Positions 7,326-15,828 of a stretch of 64,000 nt of DNA are shown piece after piece. Made by a program: the position numbers and the translations under genes. Below the pieces are notes generated by a model. That model was not told where the DNA came from, ran no database searches, and worked only from the letters and a program-made list of their open reading frames with translations. Origin of the DNA: Acidimicrobiales bacterium. GTDB taxonomy: Bacteria > Actinomycetota > Acidimicrobiia > Acidimicrobiales > Aldehydirespiratoraceae. The stretch is taken from the NCBI GenBank assembly GCA_029263215.1, contig JAJCXY010000003.1, forward strand, positions 1 through 64,000, in the 5' to 3' direction. The stretch's first letter is position 1; the number at the start of each line of letters is the position of its first letter.

Positions 7326-8546
7326 ATGGTTGCCTTTCGACTCCGGACAGATATCGATCAGCTGGCCCTGATCGAACTGCCCTGGGATCAGGCCCTGGCC
7401 GACTGGCCCGACGACCTATCAATCCGCCTGCCGGCGGGACTGCATCGCCACGAGGTGCGCTTTCTCGAGGTCGACGGCACCACCCTCGCGGTCAAGGAAC
7501 TTCCTCAGCGGCTCGCAGAACGTGAATACTCGATGCTGGAGCGCCTGCGCGACCATCACCTTCCAGGGGTGACCCTCATCGGGATCGCCTCCGACCGACG
7601 CGCTGCCGATGGCGACATGCTCGAGTCGGTTCTCATAACTCGCCACCTGCGGTACTCCCTGCCCTACCGATTCCTGTTCAGCGAGAACCGCCATGAGTGG
7701 CTGCGGGATCGCGTGGTGGATGCTCTCGCAGTGCTGCTCGTACGACTCCATATGGCCGGTTTCTTCTGGGGCGATTGTTCCCTCAACAACGCCTTGTTTC
7801 GCCGCGACGCAGGCGCGCTGCGCGCTTATGTGGTCGACACCGAGACCGCTGAATGGCACGAGAGCCTCTCCTCGGGGCAGCGGCGGTTCGAACTCGACAC
7901 GACAGCCGAGAACGTCCTCGGTGGCCTGCTCGATCTCCAAGCCAGCGGCCTGCTCAGCCCCAACGTCGAGCCCGAGACCGTCGCCCTACAGCTGGTCGAA
8001 CGCTACGACTCGCTGTGGGCCGAACTGCACGATGAGGAGGAGATCCCCAGCTCCGAGTTGGGCCGGATTCACGCCCGCTTGGCCCGACTCAACGAGCTCG
8101 GCTTTGACACCGAGGAGTACGAGTTGCACGCCGACGACGGCATCGCCCGCTTCCGCCCGACGGTCGTGGAGGAGGGCCACCATGTCAGAAGCCTTCAACG
8201 ACTCACCGGAATCGTGGCCCACGAGAACCAGGCCCGACGCCTCCTCATCGCGCTCCGAGGGTTTGGCGCGTGGCTTTCGCAGACCGAGGGCGAAAAGCTG
8301 CCTGAGGCGGTGGTTGCCTACCGCTGGCTCAAGGAGCGCTACGAACCGACGCTCGACATCTTGCCGACCGGGCTACGCGGTCGCCTCGAAGACGCCGAGA
8401 TCTACCATGAAATCCTCGAGCACAACTGGCGACTCAACGAAGAGGCCGGAGTCGACATCGCGCTCGACGTCGCGGCCAACAGCTACGTCCAGACGGTGCT
8501 GGAGCACCATGTCGACGAGCGAACGGTGCTACCACTCGACGACTGA
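7326..8546 (+). CDS. DUF4032 protein, kinase-like fold
   Basis: This 406-aa protein matches the actinobacterial DUF4032 family, with an N-terminal protein-kinase-like domain related to LPS kinases. A VK at the ATP-lysine position (TLAVKELPQRLAEREYSML), a catalytic-loop-like HMAGFFWGDCSLNNAL with GDC-x3-N, and an AYVVDTETAEWHE element in place of DFG are visible. The C-terminal half (about 220-406) is the DUF4032 region. Substrate and activity are unknown. The gene is 28 bases downstream of trpB2 and ends 8 bases before convergent thrH. Confidence 0.82.
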   Translation: MVAFRLRTDIDQLALIELPWDQALADWPDDLSIRLPAGLHRHEVRFLEVDGTTLAVKELPQRLAEREYSMLERLRDHHLPGVTLIGIASDRRAADGDMLESVLITRHLRYSLPYRFLFSENRHEWLRDRVVDALAVLLVRLHMAGFFWGDCSLNNALFRRDAGALRAYVVDTETAEWHESLSSGQRRFELDTTAENVLGGLLDLQASGLLSPNVEPETVALQLVERYDSLWAELHDEEEIPSSELGRIHARLARLNELGFDTEEYELHADDGIARFRPTVVEEGHHVRSLQRLTGIVAHENQARRLLIALRGFGAWLSQTEGEKLPEAVVAYRWLKERYEPTLDILPTGLRGRLEDAEIYHEILEHNWRLNEEAGVDIALDVAANSYVQTVLEHHVDERTVLPLDD

Positions 8547-9201: not shown

Positions 9202-10135
9202 GGACTCCACCCCCGATATTCCCCGCACCGGCATGAGCCGGGAGGCGAGGCAATGGCTCGCGTCCAACCCCCCGACTGTTCGCCGTGTTGTCACCGTCCA
9301 GAACGCGGCAGAGATCCGGGCCGAAATCGCGGCGGGTTACGCAGCCGCGATCGCCGCAGTCAGACTAGAGCTCCAACCCCGCGAAACCGAAGTAGAGGTG
9401 GGCGGCGTTCCCTGCCTCGAGGTCGTTTCCGGCTCCTCGAGGGCAAGCGGCGACACCGCAGTGATGTACTGCTTCGGCGGGGGTTACACGGCGGGCTCAC
9501 CCGAGGAGGACCTCGTCATCTCGGCCGTCATCGCCGCCGCCACAGGAGCACGGATCGTCGCACCGCGATACCCGCTCGCCCCGGAGCATCGGTTTCCGGC
9601 TGCACCCGACAGCGCCTTGGCCGTGTATCGAGAACTCCTCACCACCCACGGACCGAAGGGCTTGGCGGTGGCCGGCGAGTCGGCCGGCGGAAACCTCGCC
9701 CTCGTCTCCCTGCTGCGGGCACGAGACGAGGGCCTCGCGATGCCGTCGGCCCTGGCCCTCCTGTCGCCTTGGGGTGATGCCACTTACTCCGGCGACAGCC
9801 AGGTCGCCGACCGCGACCCGACCCTCGTTATGGCCACCGACCGTTTGGAGCCCGCCGCGGCCGACTACTACGGTGAGGCCAGCCCGACTGACCCACTGGT
9901 TTCGCCGATCTTCGGCGACTTCGCCGGGTTCCCCCCGACGTTCATCACCAGCGGCACGAGAGATCTACTCCTCTCGGACAGTGTGAGGCTCGCCACCGCG
10001 ATGAGAGCGGACGACGTCGAAGTCGACCTCAGGGTGTGGGAGGGCATGTGGCACGTCTTCGAGTTCTACCGTGAACTCCCCGAGGCAAGAGCATCGATGC
10101 AGCAGGTGGCCAGCTTCTTGTCCGACCACTTCTAA
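9200..10135 (+). CDS. Alpha/beta hydrolase, hormone-sensitive-lipase type esterase
   Basis: The product is about 311 aa. It has a GGG oxyanion loop (YCFGGGY, with Phe replacing the usual His of HGGG), the nucleophile elbow GESAGG, an Asp in SGTRDLLL and a His in MWHVFEF, completing the triad of the HSL/acetyl-esterase family. An ATG at 9233 (MSREARQW) would give a shorter N-terminus and leave room for a promoter; neither start has a clear ribosome site. Substrates are probably short acyl esters. It is convergent with the MFS gene, the stops overlapping by 3 bases. Confidence 0.82.
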   Translation: MDSTPDIPRTGMSREARQWLASNPPTVRRVVTVQNAAEIRAEIAAGYAAAIAAVRLELQPRETEVEVGGVPCLEVVSGSSRASGDTAVMYCFGGGYTAGSPEEDLVISAVIAAATGARIVAPRYPLAPEHRFPAAPDSALAVYRELLTTHGPKGLAVAGESAGGNLALVSLLRARDEGLAMPSALALLSPWGDATYSGDSQVADRDPTLVMATDRLEPAAADYYGEASPTDPLVSPIFGDFAGFPPTFITSGTRDLLLSDSVRLATAMRADDVEVDLRVWEGMWHVFEFYRELPEARASMQQVASFLSDHF

Positions 10136-12321
10136 CCCCCGAGACCGCTCAGGATCGCCTTGAGCGATTCCAACCCGGCGGCCAATGAATCAGCCAGAGC
10201 CGCCAACTCGGTGTTGGCCACCTCGAGACTTATCGGGACATCGACCTTGATGGGTATGTCGGTGGCAATCGGGATCGACTCCTTGATGGGAATCTCCACC
10301 TGAATATCGATCGGAACGTCGAGGTCGACAGGAACCGTGACATCCACCGGGATATCTATCCCGAGGGGTCCCGCGATCGTGATCGTGGTGTCGATCGTCT
10401 CGGTGATCGGGATGGAGGTCTTGATCGGCACCTCCACCACCCGCTCGAAAGCCACCTCGGTGTCGATCGACACCGTCTCGTCGACCTTCACCGTGAACTC
10501 GATGAGTGAATCCGAGAAGGTCTCGAGTCCCTCGATGGCGGAGTCGAGACCATCGGCCACCGTGGGCTGAAGCTCGAGCAGCTGCTCCTGGAATCCTTGC
10601 ACCTGGGCGGCAAAGAGGGCCGAGCCCGCCTCGACCCGGGCGAGGTCGGCCCGAGTGTCGTCGAGATCCGACGACAGCCGGTTCACCCATGTGAGCGCGC
10701 CGAGGAGGGCCACGAACATCACGCCAACGGCGACGACGAGGGCGATTGTCCTGCGATCGGTTTTCATGAGTGGTTCCCCTGTCGTGTCGTCGGACTCGTC
10801 GCCAGTGCCGGCGATCGAGCCACGGAGCATGAGTGCCAGCACGACCCCGATCGCCACCAGCGCCGCGGTGGCGAGGAAGGTCTCGGTGATTGCACTGGCG
10901 GTGAGATCCTGCTGAGCAGCGATGAGAGCCTCTTCGAAGCCAGGGTCGGTGATCGACGGAAGCTCGAGATCGGCCCGCAGCGAGTTGAAACGGGCGAGTG
11001 CCCAGGCAGTGAGCGCGGCCAGACCAACGCTGAACCCGATCAAGCGAACCACCATCACGGTGGCCGCCGCGCTCCCCCGCTTGTCGGGTGGGGCTTGGTC
11101 GACCACCACCGAGGTGGTGGGTGCCACGGTCGCGCCCAACCCTAGGCCGAGCACGGCGAGCATTACGGCCAGAGCCGGCCGCGACGAATCGGCTCCCCAA
11201 CTCAACCCCATCAAAAGGTAGGCGACAGCGGCGGCTACGAGCCCACCGACTACGGGCCACCGGTATCCGACCCTCTCGGTGAGACGGCCACCGACGTAGG
11301 AGGTGATGGCCATGCCAGCCGTCATCGACGACAGGAGCCATCCTGCCACCACCGCCGAACGTTCGAGATCGATCTCCACCGCGTTGACGAAGATCGGCAC
11401 GTCGACCATCGCGATCACCAGGGCCGCGCCCACGATGAAATTCACGACCAGAGCCAGACCGACAGTGGGGCCGGCCAGCAGCCCTCGATCGAGCACGGGA
11501 TCATCGCTGGTGCGCTGGTGGCGCACGAACACCAAGCCGAGGATCACCGCCAAGGGATAGAGGAGGCGGAAGTCGAAGCCTGATCCACCCCGAAGTTCTT
11601 CGAGGCCCGACACGCTCTGCACCTCGGCGTTGCCGAGCAGGGCGAGATCGAGACTGACAAGGGCGCCGGTGAGCAGACCGGCTCCCACCCAGTCGACCCG
11701 CCGACTGCGGTCGGGCCGGTGGTGGTCAGACAGGGCCCACCAGACCCACACCAGGCCCCCGAGGGCCAGTGGAACGTTGAGCCAGAACTGGGTCTGCCAG
11801 TTGAAGAACCGAACGAGGACGGCACCGTAGAGAGGTCCCCACACCCAACCGAGGGTTTCGATCGCGGCGAGAGTTCCGAGCGCCCGGGCTCGAGAGCGCA
11901 CCGGATAGACATCGCCGACCACCGCCAAAGCCACCGGCACCATCGCGCCACCTCCGAGAGCGGTGAGCACACGTCCGACGAGGAAGGGCCCGAGCGACGA
12001 GGAAAGGGGGATGACGACGGTGCCGACGAGAAAGACCAGGTAGGCCCCGACGAAAACCTGGCGACGACCGTAGACATCGCTGAGCCGACCCGCGATCGGC
12101 ATCGCCGCCACGAACGCCACCAGGTAGGCATTCACGACCCAAGCCGCGTCGTCGAGGCCATCAGGGAGAACCAGCCCGAGATCATTGATGATCGGGCGCA
12201 GCATCGTCGTGACGACGGTGAGATCGTCCGCCGCGACAAATACCGCGAAACCCACAGCCGCCAAGATCGCCCGGGCGCTCCGCTCGTCCGGTGCTGCGGT
12301 GTCGATCGAGACGCTAGCCAT
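10132..12321 (-). CDS. P55-like MFS exporter fused to a membrane-anchored repeat domain
   Basis: Residues about 1-505 form a 14-helix DHA2-type MFS transporter, with the motif-A-like GRLSDVYGRRQVF and the antiporter motif C region. After a short acidic linker (SIAGTGDESDDTTGEPL) a further 211 residues follow in the same frame: a fifteenth helix starting MKTDRRT, a heptad-like region, then a stretch of alternating hydrophobic residues with repeated D/E-x-P-I/V units and a duplicated block (EVPIKTSIPI and EIPIKESIPI). With 14 helices both MFS ends are cytosolic, so helix 15 places the extra domain outside. The start overlaps the lipoprotein gene by 8 bases. That pairing matches mycobacterial LprG-Rv1410c (P55), which moves lipids to the cell envelope. 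Confidence 0.85.
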   Translation of the reverse strand: MASVSIDTAAPDERSARAILAAVGFAVFVAADDLTVVTTMLRPIINDLGLVLPDGLDDAAWVVNAYLVAFVAAMPIAGRLSDVYGRRQVFVGAYLVFLVGTVVIPLSSSLGPFLVGRVLTALGGGAMVPVALAVVGDVYPVRSRARALGTLAAIETLGWVWGPLYGAVLVRFFNWQTQFWLNVPLALGGLVWVWWALSDHHRPDRSRRVDWVGAGLLTGALVSLDLALLGNAEVQSVSGLEELRGGSGFDFRLLYPLAVILGLVFVRHQRTSDDPVLDRGLLAGPTVGLALVVNFIVGAALVIAMVDVPIFVNAVEIDLERSAVVAGWLLSSMTAGMAITSYVGGRLTERVGYRWPVVGGLVAAAVAYLLMGLSWGADSSRPALAVMLAVLGLGLGATVAPTTSVVVDQAPPDKRGSAAATVMVVRLIGFSVGLAALTAWALARFNSLRADLELPSITDPGFEEALIAAQQDLTASAITETFLATAALVAIGVVLALMLRGSIAGTGDESDDTTGEPLMKTDRRTIALVVAVGVMFVALLGALTWVNRLSSDLDDTRADLARVEAGSALFAAQVQGFQEQLLELQPTVADGLDSAIEGLETFSDSLIEFTVKVDETVSIDTEVAFERVVEVPIKTSIPITETIDTTITIAGPLGIDIPVDVTVPVDLDVPIDIQVEIPIKESIPIATDIPIKVDVPISLEVANTELAALADSLAAGLESLKAILSGLGG

Positions 12322-13027
12322 CAGAGCCGGGCGCAACGATGGTGAAGTCCTCGCCGTAGTCGCTCAACTCGAGCACCCAATCGGACTCACCGTTGTCGGC
12401 CTCGGTGGTGAACTCGATGCGGGTCACCACCGCCGTGACCGGATGGATCCAGAGATCGACGGGCACGTCGCGGCCCGCCACGAGGCCAGCGGTGACGGTC
12501 TCGATGCGGTCAGCCGTGGCGGTGCCGGTGAGGTGATAGCGATCGCCTTCCACCCCGATGACGACCGGGTCGACAAGGTCGGCGAGCAGTGGTTGCCAGC
12601 CGCCACGGGGATCGAAGAAGGTGCGAGGGTCGATGTTGTAGCCGGCGGGAAGGGGCTCGAACTCGCCGGTGATCGGGTTGGAAAGCCACACGTCGGGGCC
12701 AACGGCAACCGCTCCGAGTTCGGTCTTCAGGGTGTCGTTGACATTGACCTTCACGATCGCATCAGCCTCCGAGGGCACGGTGAAACGACCCACCACGGCC
12801 TCCAGCGCCAGACTGTCGACGGGGTCGATGTACACCGACGCGCCGGTGTGCTCCAGCTCGAACCTCACCGACGAGACCGCACCCATGGCGTCGGCCGACG
12901 CGGCAACGATCACCGCAACATCCTCGGCCAGCCACTCCCCGTCGAGGCTCGGGTCGCCCCCACCACAGCTCGCGACAGCGGCGGAGCCGAGGAGGACCAC
13001 CGCCAGGGACTTTCGCGCGTTGATCAC
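12314..13027 (-). CDS. LppX/LprAFG-family lipoprotein (LprG-like)
   Basis: The 237-aa lipoprotein begins at a GTG that overlaps the TGA of the metallophosphoesterase gene (GTGA). A short basic start (INARKS), a hydrophobic segment and the lipobox VASC-GGG give a lipid-anchored mature protein. The mature part has the LprAFG pattern: SVRFELEHTG, VPSEADAIVKV, LKTELGAVAVGPDVW, then a C-terminal sheet with ELSDYGEDFTI. In mycobacteria LprG binds triacylated lipids in a hydrophobic cavity and works with the MFS transporter encoded next to it; the same order is seen here. Cargo is unknown, as no mycolate envelope is indicated. Confidence 0.85.
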   Translation of the reverse strand: MINARKSLAVVLLGSAAVASCGGGDPSLDGEWLAEDVAVIVAASADAMGAVSSVRFELEHTGASVYIDPVDSLALEAVVGRFTVPSEADAIVKVNVNDTLKTELGAVAVGPDVWLSNPITGEFEPLPAGYNIDPRTFFDPRGGWQPLLADLVDPVVIGVEGDRYHLTGTATADRIETVTAGLVAGRDVPVDLWIHPVTAVVTRIEFTTEADNGESDWVLELSDYGEDFTIVAPGSDG

Positions 13028-13902
13028 GAGCTGGTGTCGAGCCAGGCCTGCACGTCTTCGAAGGTCGCCCTTCCGGCGAGGTACTCCGCGGCCACTTCTG
13101 GCAGGCGGTGCCTCTCGCTCCATCGGTCGTCATCCAGCCACACCACCTCGGTCTGCACCGATCCGTCGGGCCGGAACTCGTAGCGGCGATAGCCGGGGGG
13201 CATCAGGGTCATCGCCTCGAAGTCCATCGACAGCCCGGTGGAGGGACACAGATGACTCGGGACACCACCGATATCGATGGTGATGCCGGTGTGGGCGTGC
13301 CCCGCCGCCACCGCCCGCACCGTGGTGTCCTCCACGAGGCTTCGAACCTGCTCGTCGTATTCGGGTTCCTCGAAGAACCGACTCGAACCGGGCGGGTGGT
13401 GGAGCCAGAGCATCGCGTGCTCAGCACCAGACGCGGCCAGCTGTCTCTCGAGCCGGGAGTATTCGTGGTCGGTGAAGCTGCCCTTCGCTTCGTGGGTTCG
13501 ATCGGCCGTGTCGATCCACCCGTCTCGGGGATGCAGAGCCAATCCTCCCGCGTTGCTGTCGCCGAACAGGAACAGCCAGTTGCCCACCTTCATCGTCGAT
13601 TGGATCACCACTCCCGGACGCGGGAGATGGGTGTGGAAGGTGTCGCTGCGGTCGTGATTGCCCGGAAGGCAGTAGACCGGCACGCCGAACCCGGCCAGCA
13701 CGGCACCGGCATGCCCGTACTCCTCGGGCCTTCCCTCATTGGCGATATCGCCGGTGATCACGAAAATGTCGGGAGGGTCGGCCATGACATGCTCCGCAAC
13801 AGCCGCGAAAGACTCCGTCGTGTCGCGCCATCCATAGCCGCCGGCCGAAGTGCTGATGTGCAGATCAGAGAGTTGGGCGACTCTCAAGGGTGCGTCCGGC
13901 AT
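13024..13902 (-). CDS. Calcineurin-like metallophosphoesterase
   Basis: The 292-aa protein contains all five dimetal motifs in order: DLHI (residues 12-15), GDIANE, GNHD, a metal-binding His in LWLHHPP, and GHAHTG. The arrangement resembles class III cyclic-nucleotide or phospholipid-type phosphodiesterases (CpdA/GpdQ-like). It is the first gene of a three-gene minus-strand operon with the lipoprotein and the MFS transporter. There is no signal peptide, so it acts in the cytoplasm. The link to lipid export could mean hydrolysis of a phospholipid headgroup or a regulatory cyclic nucleotide; this is inference. Confidence 0.88.
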   Translation of the reverse strand: MPDAPLRVAQLSDLHISTSAGGYGWRDTTESFAAVAEHVMADPPDIFVITGDIANEGRPEEYGHAGAVLAGFGVPVYCLPGNHDRSDTFHTHLPRPGVVIQSTMKVGNWLFLFGDSNAGGLALHPRDGWIDTADRTHEAKGSFTDHEYSRLERQLAASGAEHAMLWLHHPPGSSRFFEEPEYDEQVRSLVEDTTVRAVAAGHAHTGITIDIGGVPSHLCPSTGLSMDFEAMTLMPPGYRRYEFRPDGSVQTEVVWLDDDRWSERHRLPEVAAEYLAGRATFEDVQAWLDTSS

Positions 13903-14934: not shown

Positions 14935-15651
14935 TCAGTCGGAGTCGACGGAATCAGGGCTGTCGAAGCTCACCGAACTGTCGAGGCTCACCGATGTGTC
15001 GAGACTGTCGTCGGTGAACGGGATGTCGGGCACAACGCCAGGGTCGAGCGGATCACCGCCGAAAGCGATCTCGTCGCCGTCGCCGTAGCCATCGCGGTCG
15101 GTGTCCCAGTGGAGCGGATCGGTCTTGTAGGTGTTGAACTCATCACCGTCGTTGAGCCGATCATCATCAGTGTCGGGATCGCGGGGATCGGTGCCGTGGA
15201 TGGTGTACTCGTCGCCGTCGGAGAGCCCGTCATGGTCGGTATCGGACTCCAAGGGATTGGTGCGCAGTTCCTCGAGTTCGAAGCCGTCGGGCAAGCCGTC
15301 GCCATCGGTGTCGGGATTGAGCGGATCGCTTCCGAACTTCACCTCCTGATAGTCGGTGAGGCCATCGGCGTCGGAGTCGGGGTTGAGCGGGTCGGTGCCC
15401 AGCTCCGCCTCTTCGATATCGCTGAGACCGTCGCCATCGGCATCGAACGGCGACGAGAAGCTGTCGTCGACATCGACGGTGGTGGCTGTGTAGTGAGCCA
15501 GCGGCCGAACGGTGCCGGCCTGAGCGATCGAGACCGTGTCGCGCAACGACACATCGCCACCGCTCGATTCCGCGGCAACTGCCACCGAGCCAAAGGCGAC
15601 GCTCACACCGACGGCACCTCCAACGAGCTTCATCGGTCTGGTGATGTCCAC
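14935..15651 (-). CDS. Secreted thrombospondin type 3 repeat protein, calcium-binding
   Basis: The 238-aa protein starts at a GTG with a strong GAGGAGG 8 nt upstream, giving a short n-region and a signal peptide ([21 protein letters not shown] region). A linker of about 45 residues follows, then six tandem units of about 22 residues, each of the form D-x-D-x-D-G-L-x-D-x-x-E ... TDPLNP. These are TSP3-like calcium loops. The C-terminus is a Ser/Asp/Val-rich tail with no sorting signal or membrane helix. The fifth unit has Arg in place of the loop Gly. The role is probably extracellular structure or adhesion; partners are unknown. Confidence 0.85.
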
Positions 15652-15828
15652 GGACAAGGCCTCCTCAGAAGAACCCGAAAGGGAATTTCGTGAAACCGCC
15701 CGCTCCACTACATGTTGTCAGCAGATCGACCGGCATTCGGTGATTCCCCGAACGATCCCCGTGGGTGTCATTGTCGGTCGACCGCCGTTCAACCTTGAGC
15801 ACCGACGATCGGGACTAGTTTCACAGTC

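Follow-up and report, generated by a model that had tools for sequence, protein, structure and literature searches.

The locus considered here lies in a stretch of 64,000 nucleotides, positions 1 to 64,000 of contig JAJCXY010000003.1 from an Acidimicrobiales bacterium (assembly GCA_029263215.1), which is called the window throughout. It raises the question of what a lipid exporter gains when its membrane transporter runs on, in frame, into an additional transmembrane (TM) helix and a long repetitive domain. The locus encodes an exporter of a known kind, the LprG-Rv1410 (P55) type, with a new, conserved and undescribed component, here called the ribbon, and with a gene that probably gives two products. 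The parts of the exporter pair and the joint to the ribbon are as follows, in window coordinates.

12314..13027, minus strand: lprG-like lipoprotein gene, 237 residues, GTG start at 13027, stop ending at 12314.
12314..12321, minus strand: 8-nt overlap of the lprG stop with the start of the major facilitator superfamily (MFS) gene, ATGGCTAG, read from the sequence.
10816..12321, minus strand: 14-TM DHA2 transporter core of the Rv1410/P55 type.
10768..10815, minus strand: cytosolic linker between TM14 and TM15, differing in sequence and length from one relative to the next.

The lprG product matches the Pfam family PF07161 (LppX_LprAFG; E=6.1e-16, 59.3 bits against a cut-off of 24) and, judged by eye, carries a signal peptide and the lipobox VASC (AVVLLGSAAVASC; VINARKSLAVVLLGSAAVASCGGG). 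The MFS start (ATG at 12321) has a weak Shine-Dalgarno match (-1.7 kcal/mol), which together with the 8-nt overlap is consistent with translational coupling. From this ATG the frame stays open down to 10132, giving 729 residues with no stop between transporter and extension.

The transporter is a true relative of Rv1410, and the pair a real relative of LprG-Rv1410. Apart from its match to the Pfam family MFS_1, the closest solved structure by sequence is 8pnl, the Rv1410 homologue MHAS2168 (E=7e-54; runner-up 9e-19). 8pnl is also the best match (TM-score 0.84) to the fold predicted for a homologue in which lipoprotein, transporter and ribbon form one chain; the LprG domain of that model mostly scores 87-98 for predicted local confidence (pLDDT). 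The functional hallmarks of Rv1410 are the proton-coupling pair D22-R108, the ion lock E147-R417, which is not present in 46 other MFS proteins compared, and periplasmically extended TM11 and TM12 (PMC10576003). The equivalents of the two pairs, D38/R122 and E160/R431 in the numbering of the window transporter (P0001), are invariant in 32 of 32 relatives. In the model of one triple fusion (L029), which has 14 helices between residues 299 and 780, TM11 and TM12 are helices of 38 and 36 residues, and the corresponding segment is conserved in the window. Orthologues of the transporter and of LprG are confined to an identical set of genomes, 14 of the 198 examined from the order.

Beyond the linker come 211 residues for which neither Pfam nor NCBIfam has a family that scores meaningfully. 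The ribbon was modelled with AlphaFold2 from the window sequence aligned with 37 relatives; the mean pLDDT is 90.1, and the predicted parts are given below with residue numbers counted from the methionine encoded at 10767.

10678..10746, minus strand: TM15; its hydropathy peak (2.69) is the highest of the whole protein, with K/R residues ahead of it (MKTDRRT).
10513..10677, minus strand: long extracytoplasmic helix continuing TM15, residues 31-85 (AlphaFold helix 5-85, pLDDT about 90-95).
10372..10506, minus strand: beta strand 1, residues 88-132 (AlphaFold), with hydrophobic/polar alternation.
10222..10356, minus strand: beta strand 2, residues 138-182 (AlphaFold).
10138..10209, minus strand: C-terminal amphipathic helix (AlphaFold helix 187-210), with a conserved TELxxL..GL motif.

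The two strands, predicted to be antiparallel, would each be about 150 angstroms long, a figure obtained by arithmetic at about 3.3 angstroms per residue and not read off the model. The alternation along the strands is strict and conserved: over 38 homologues, Chloroflexota members included, hydrophobic residues occupy 82% of odd strand positions and 4.6% of even ones, and all 356 strand prolines are at even positions, none at odd, so that they fall on the polar face only. In strand 2 of the window protein the prolines at 140, 146, 152, 160, 166, 172 and 178 all share the polar parity. Five loci (L039, L040, L047, L049 and L050) have a 6-residue unit inserted in both strands together, after residues 119 and 149, which are opposite each other in the predicted hairpin register; elsewhere neither strand has it, and the tree permits as few as one event. 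A correlation of strand lengths obtained by automatic segmentation on the alternation was discarded, both strands holding the same parity through the turn. Across 11 ribbon sequences 46 alignment columns are invariant.

The fold and topology are predictions. The ribbon would lie outside the cytoplasm because 14 TM helices leave both ends of the MFS core inside, because K/R residues precede TM15 and acidic residues come after it, and because the triple fusions link the extracytoplasmic LprG through one TM helix to the cytosolic end of the MFS core. Much of what a preliminary description of this DNA had proposed is thus upheld: an LprG/P55-like pair, a transporter continuing in frame through TM15 into its extension, and an extension that topology places outside. 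The same description had allowed that the domain might prove disordered, which the model does not predict (pLDDT 90). It had also seen repeated Asp/Glu-x-Pro-Ile units; repeats are present, and their unit is better written [VI]-P-[IV]-x-x-x, with a period of about 6, along two long beta strands.

In the order, the ribbon occurs in 11 of 198 genomes (the window's and ten others), each time beside lprG-MFS; the search with the single extension sequence gave E=1e-40 to 1e-66 in those ten. One further weak match in the order (G073), of low complexity, was not counted as a relative. Put the other way, 11 of the 14 genomes that hold the lprG-MFS pair have the ribbon fused or adjacent. Three gene arrangements are found. 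Transporter and ribbon share one stop-free frame in 26 of 29 non-redundant loci. G006, L034 and L038 have a separate gene for each, with GAAGGAG and an overlapping GTGA at the joint (GAAGGAGCCACGCCGTGA). Two loci, L029 (2460-5543) and L031 (2391-5636), encode LprG-TM-MFS-TM15-ribbon as a single open reading frame. On a maximum-likelihood tree the loci with split genes are nested next to one with fused genes (100/100), which makes splitting the probable later step; both triple fusions fall in a single clade (100/100), and the genomes with the pair only lie on long outer branches. The three-part architecture and its conservation are thus evident in the sequences, and the triple fusions and the shared genomic distribution support the conclusion that the ribbon belongs with LprG.

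Outside the order, a sample of 396 genomes of the phylum yielded no clear ribbon member. Two matches there were set aside, one covering only profile positions 3-67 at 24 bits (G430) and one in a low-complexity stretch within a 1270-residue open frame (G443). Ribbon matches were obtained on 30 named contigs, 28 from metagenome-assembled genomes of Acidimicrobiales type and two from Chloroflexota. Of 201 Chloroflexota genomes, 37 have a match at E<=1e-4; the weakest of these matches may be spurious. The Chloroflexota members read are small stand-alone proteins with one TM helix and the same [VI]P[IV] repeats. They are found at loci L081-L107 and L110-L119, in places two per genome, and in some distant members (e.g., L097, L100 and L101) part of the repeat is apparently gone. 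The LppX_LprAFG lipoprotein family is best known from actinobacteria; the Chloroflexota genomes G687 and G580 have up to three of its genes.

The second part of the answer concerns an internal start at the joint between transporter and ribbon.

10774..10780, minus strand: Shine-Dalgarno-like AGGGGAA upstream of the internal ATG, -6.5 kcal/mol against the anti-Shine-Dalgarno sequence.
10132..10767, minus strand: predicted free product, a membrane-anchored ribbon protein of 211 residues from ATG 10767 in the MFS frame.

Pairing at the window site, AGGGGAACCACTC-ATG, is stronger than at the lprG or the MFS start, and only 6% of background internal ATGs (median -2.0 kcal/mol) are as strong. Nearly every fused locus has an in-frame junction ATG with AGGAG, GGAGG or a similar sequence 5 to 8 bases upstream. 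Junction sites have a median of -7.25 kcal/mol, a value biased by picking the best site per linker, and the conclusion therefore rests on a resampling test of the 26 fused loci in which any in-frame ATG in the linker was allowed. A Shine-Dalgarno core of at least 4 nt was present in 24 of 26 loci and one of at least 5 nt in 16 of 26, whereas synonymous resampling of the same proteins gave means of 14.6 and 4.7 (maxima of 20 and 9 in 500). The corresponding figures were 6.5 and 1.5 after codon shuffling and 3 and 1 in the two remaining frames. Because this start is conserved, one clade has separate genes and homologues stand alone in Chloroflexota, the ribbon is probably made from one frame in two forms, fused and free.

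These results also change the picture given by the preliminary description. It had tied the domain to the lipoprotein, with which the two natural triple fusions and the common distribution agree, and the forms for which it had proposed a search exist, as Chloroflexota stand-alones, three split loci and two triple fusions. A repeat domain unique to the transporter is contradicted by the stand-alone relatives, and the domain is probably not solely a fusion, given the conserved internal start and the separate-gene clade. It had missed the start inside the gene, the loci with split or triple-fused genes and the stand-alone relatives. Its hypothesis of a bridge or channel for lipid gains plausibility from the continuous hydrophobic face.

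How such parts might work together can be proposed from the Rv1410 model, in which lipid exits the membrane core through the transporter and TM11/TM12 shield its passage to LprG (PMC10576003). The cargo would be a strongly hydrophobic lipid, triacylglycerol (TAG) or wax ester if the analogy applies. The transporter would take it out of the membrane core and offer it on the extended TM11 and TM12 to either LprG or the ribbon. WS/DGAT-type genes, of which this genome has 4, occur in 13 of 14 lprG-positive genomes and in 118 of 184 others, a weak difference. In the ribbon, the TM helix and the long helix would be followed by a beta arm of two strands, 45 residues and about 150 angstroms long, with one face continuously Val/Ile/Leu and the other polar with prolines. 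Ribbons should pack face to face round a hydrophobic core, since the prolines would block edge-to-edge pairing. The fused ribbon would anchor the oligomer on the transporter and the free ribbon from ATG 10767 would complete it; the tethered ribbon could continue the lipid shielding begun by TM11/TM12, and lipid leaving the membrane would be guided or shielded by the whole assembly on its way across the zone in which LprG acts. The reading of the whole locus as an LprG-Rv1410-type exporter with two ribbon forms in an oligomeric lipid conduit is held at slightly less than even confidence. That face-to-face ribbons, one tethered and the others free from the internal start, form a hydrophobic path of at least 150 angstroms is possible rather than probable.

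Several observations weigh against the conduit or the two ribbon forms. In the monomer model the relative placement of the ribbon parts is not fixed (predicted TM-score 0.46), and the triple-fusion model, with an unchanged ribbon layout, scores much lower in that part (10-residue blocks of about 40-88), probably because the alignment is shallower there. No solved fold matches the ribbon at E<=0.001 in a Foldseek search of the PDB. The window's own site (AGGGGAA, G-rich) is weaker than most, and the window and L030 score zero on the strict core test. The genomes G024 and G017 hold the lprG-MFS pair alone, so the ribbon is not required for the core function. At the Chloroflexota loci read, stand-alone ribbons are not near lprG or a lipid transporter and their neighbours have no common theme, and a PF07161 gene is present in only some of the ribbon-bearing Chloroflexota genomes; for these reasons the ribbon need not be a lipid device. 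The co-occurrence of ribbon and PF07161 in that phylum is suggestive and is uncontrolled for phylogeny and genome size. Draft metagenome assemblies are the source of nearly all the evidence; G006 and G134 are single-contig genomes.

The alternative that survives best is that the ribbon is a structural stalk or spacer. As an oligomer it would keep the transporter or LprG at some distance, or cross the peptidoglycan or be anchored to it, and would carry no lipid, its hydrophobic faces merely packing on each other. Packing alone accounts for the alternation and for the placement of the prolines, length varies in 6-residue steps, and the stand-alone relatives lack lipid-export neighbours; the tight link to a lipid exporter in one lineage, including the triple fusions, makes a lipid role at least likely. 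A stalk that carries no lipid has a real chance of being right, though one well short of even.

It is less easy to maintain that only the fused protein is made and that the junction Shine-Dalgarno sequence and ATG are a relic of gene fusion. A fusion event would leave such a site, and the frame is open in 26 of 29 loci, so that fusion itself appears to be under selection. The linker, however, ranges from 23 to 132 codons in relatives and varies in sequence, yet the site is kept beyond what the amino acids require; the site energies (median -7.25 against -2.0 kcal/mol) point the same way, with the best-per-linker choice making resampling the fair test. A fused protein alone is judged unlikely. 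At L040 (1474-1760) the MFS-ribbon linker has a tandem duplication (HxMAAGVDGPSGV repeated), which shows how freely the linker changes.

A third possibility is that the hairpins join edge to edge as a beta-barrel pore or collar, like FliF/SpoIIIAG rings or aerolysin-type pores. The best Foldseek matches, weak ones at E 0.01 to 1, do include long-hairpin ring and pore formers, but none in the PDB reaches E 0.001, and strand 2 has a proline at every sixth residue, all on one parity, which would be expected to interrupt edge pairing; a barrel is very unlikely. Three Foldseek matches to viral models at E<=0.001, with TM-scores of at most 0.24, were taken as chance matches between long hairpins. 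A search of PDB and Pfam with the ribbon-family profile gave nothing significant; the best Pfam match to the family is DUF948, of unknown function (E=1.3e-4, 4 of 38 members). Finally, an ordinary DHA2 drug exporter with a superficial likeness to Rv1410 is hardly credible: EmrB and drug-exporter models score too, but 8pnl is ahead by 35 orders of magnitude, the ion-lock residues are invariant and lprG is always adjoining or fused.

With the lipid-exporter reading in place, the system can be set beside known ones. The triacylglyceride exporter LprG-Rv1410 of mycobacteria (MHAS2167/2168, 8pnl; PMC10576003) has in common with it the lprG-MFS pair, the PF07161 lipoprotein, the 14-TM DHA2 transporter, the D22/R108 and E147/R417 equivalents and the long TM11/TM12; TM15 with the ribbon, the probable second product and the triple fusions are extra here. 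EmrAB-TolC, with six EmrA per EmrB in structure 8zal (PMC13139468), is alike in combining one DHA2 MFS monomer with several membrane-anchored elongated partners, the multimer here being a proposal. The ribbon has neither the sequence nor the domains (lipoyl, beta-barrel) of EmrA, and it is joined covalently to the transporter and probably made as a free protein too. For the lipoyl, beta-barrel and hairpin domains of EmrA/HlyD-type adaptors, Pfam gives no match in the window ribbon, and the list of 11 families (E<=0.05) for the 38 ribbon members does not include them.

For the internal start a parallel is SpaO/SctQ of type III secretion, which is made full-length and, from an internal start, as a C-terminal short form whose homodimer assembles with the long form (PMC12132427). 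The in-frame internal start giving a C-terminal short form is the likeness; the proteins are unrelated, and the short form here, a bitopic membrane protein, is predicted only. The stand-alone [VI]P[IV]-repeat proteins of Chloroflexota have the same N-terminal TM helix, two-strand alternation and C-terminal helix as the ribbon, and differ in not being next to lprG or MFS in the loci read.

The window's flanking genes recur only at the two nearest loci (L025 and L030); the lprG-MFS-ribbon module is therefore a unit of its own. One neighbour overlaps it.

13024..13902, minus strand: calcineurin-like metallophosphoesterase gene (PF00149, E=4.7e-18), overlapping lprG by GTGA.

This gene is probably outside the module and was not found next to it in 37 related loci. 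Further away, the gene at 14935-15708 (minus strand) is the next one upstream of a 3-hydroxyisobutyrate dehydrogenase-like gene; its product looks secreted and has many calcium-binding DxDxDGL repeats (thrombospondin type 3-like). Positions 7326-8546 encode a DUF4032 protein whose N-terminal part is Kdo/WaaP-like kinase.

Whether LprG hands TAG to further periplasmic proteins has been stated to be unclear (PMC10576003). The ribbon is a candidate for such a next component, attached to the pump by evolution and in one clade to LprG as well, and its geometry, long and with one hydrophobic face, suggests a testable lipid path beyond LprG. The triple fusions L029 and L031 are useful structural targets. 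More broadly, the ribbon family has neither a Pfam entry nor a solved structure, and an internal start probably lets this membrane transporter gene set the stoichiometry of a partner.

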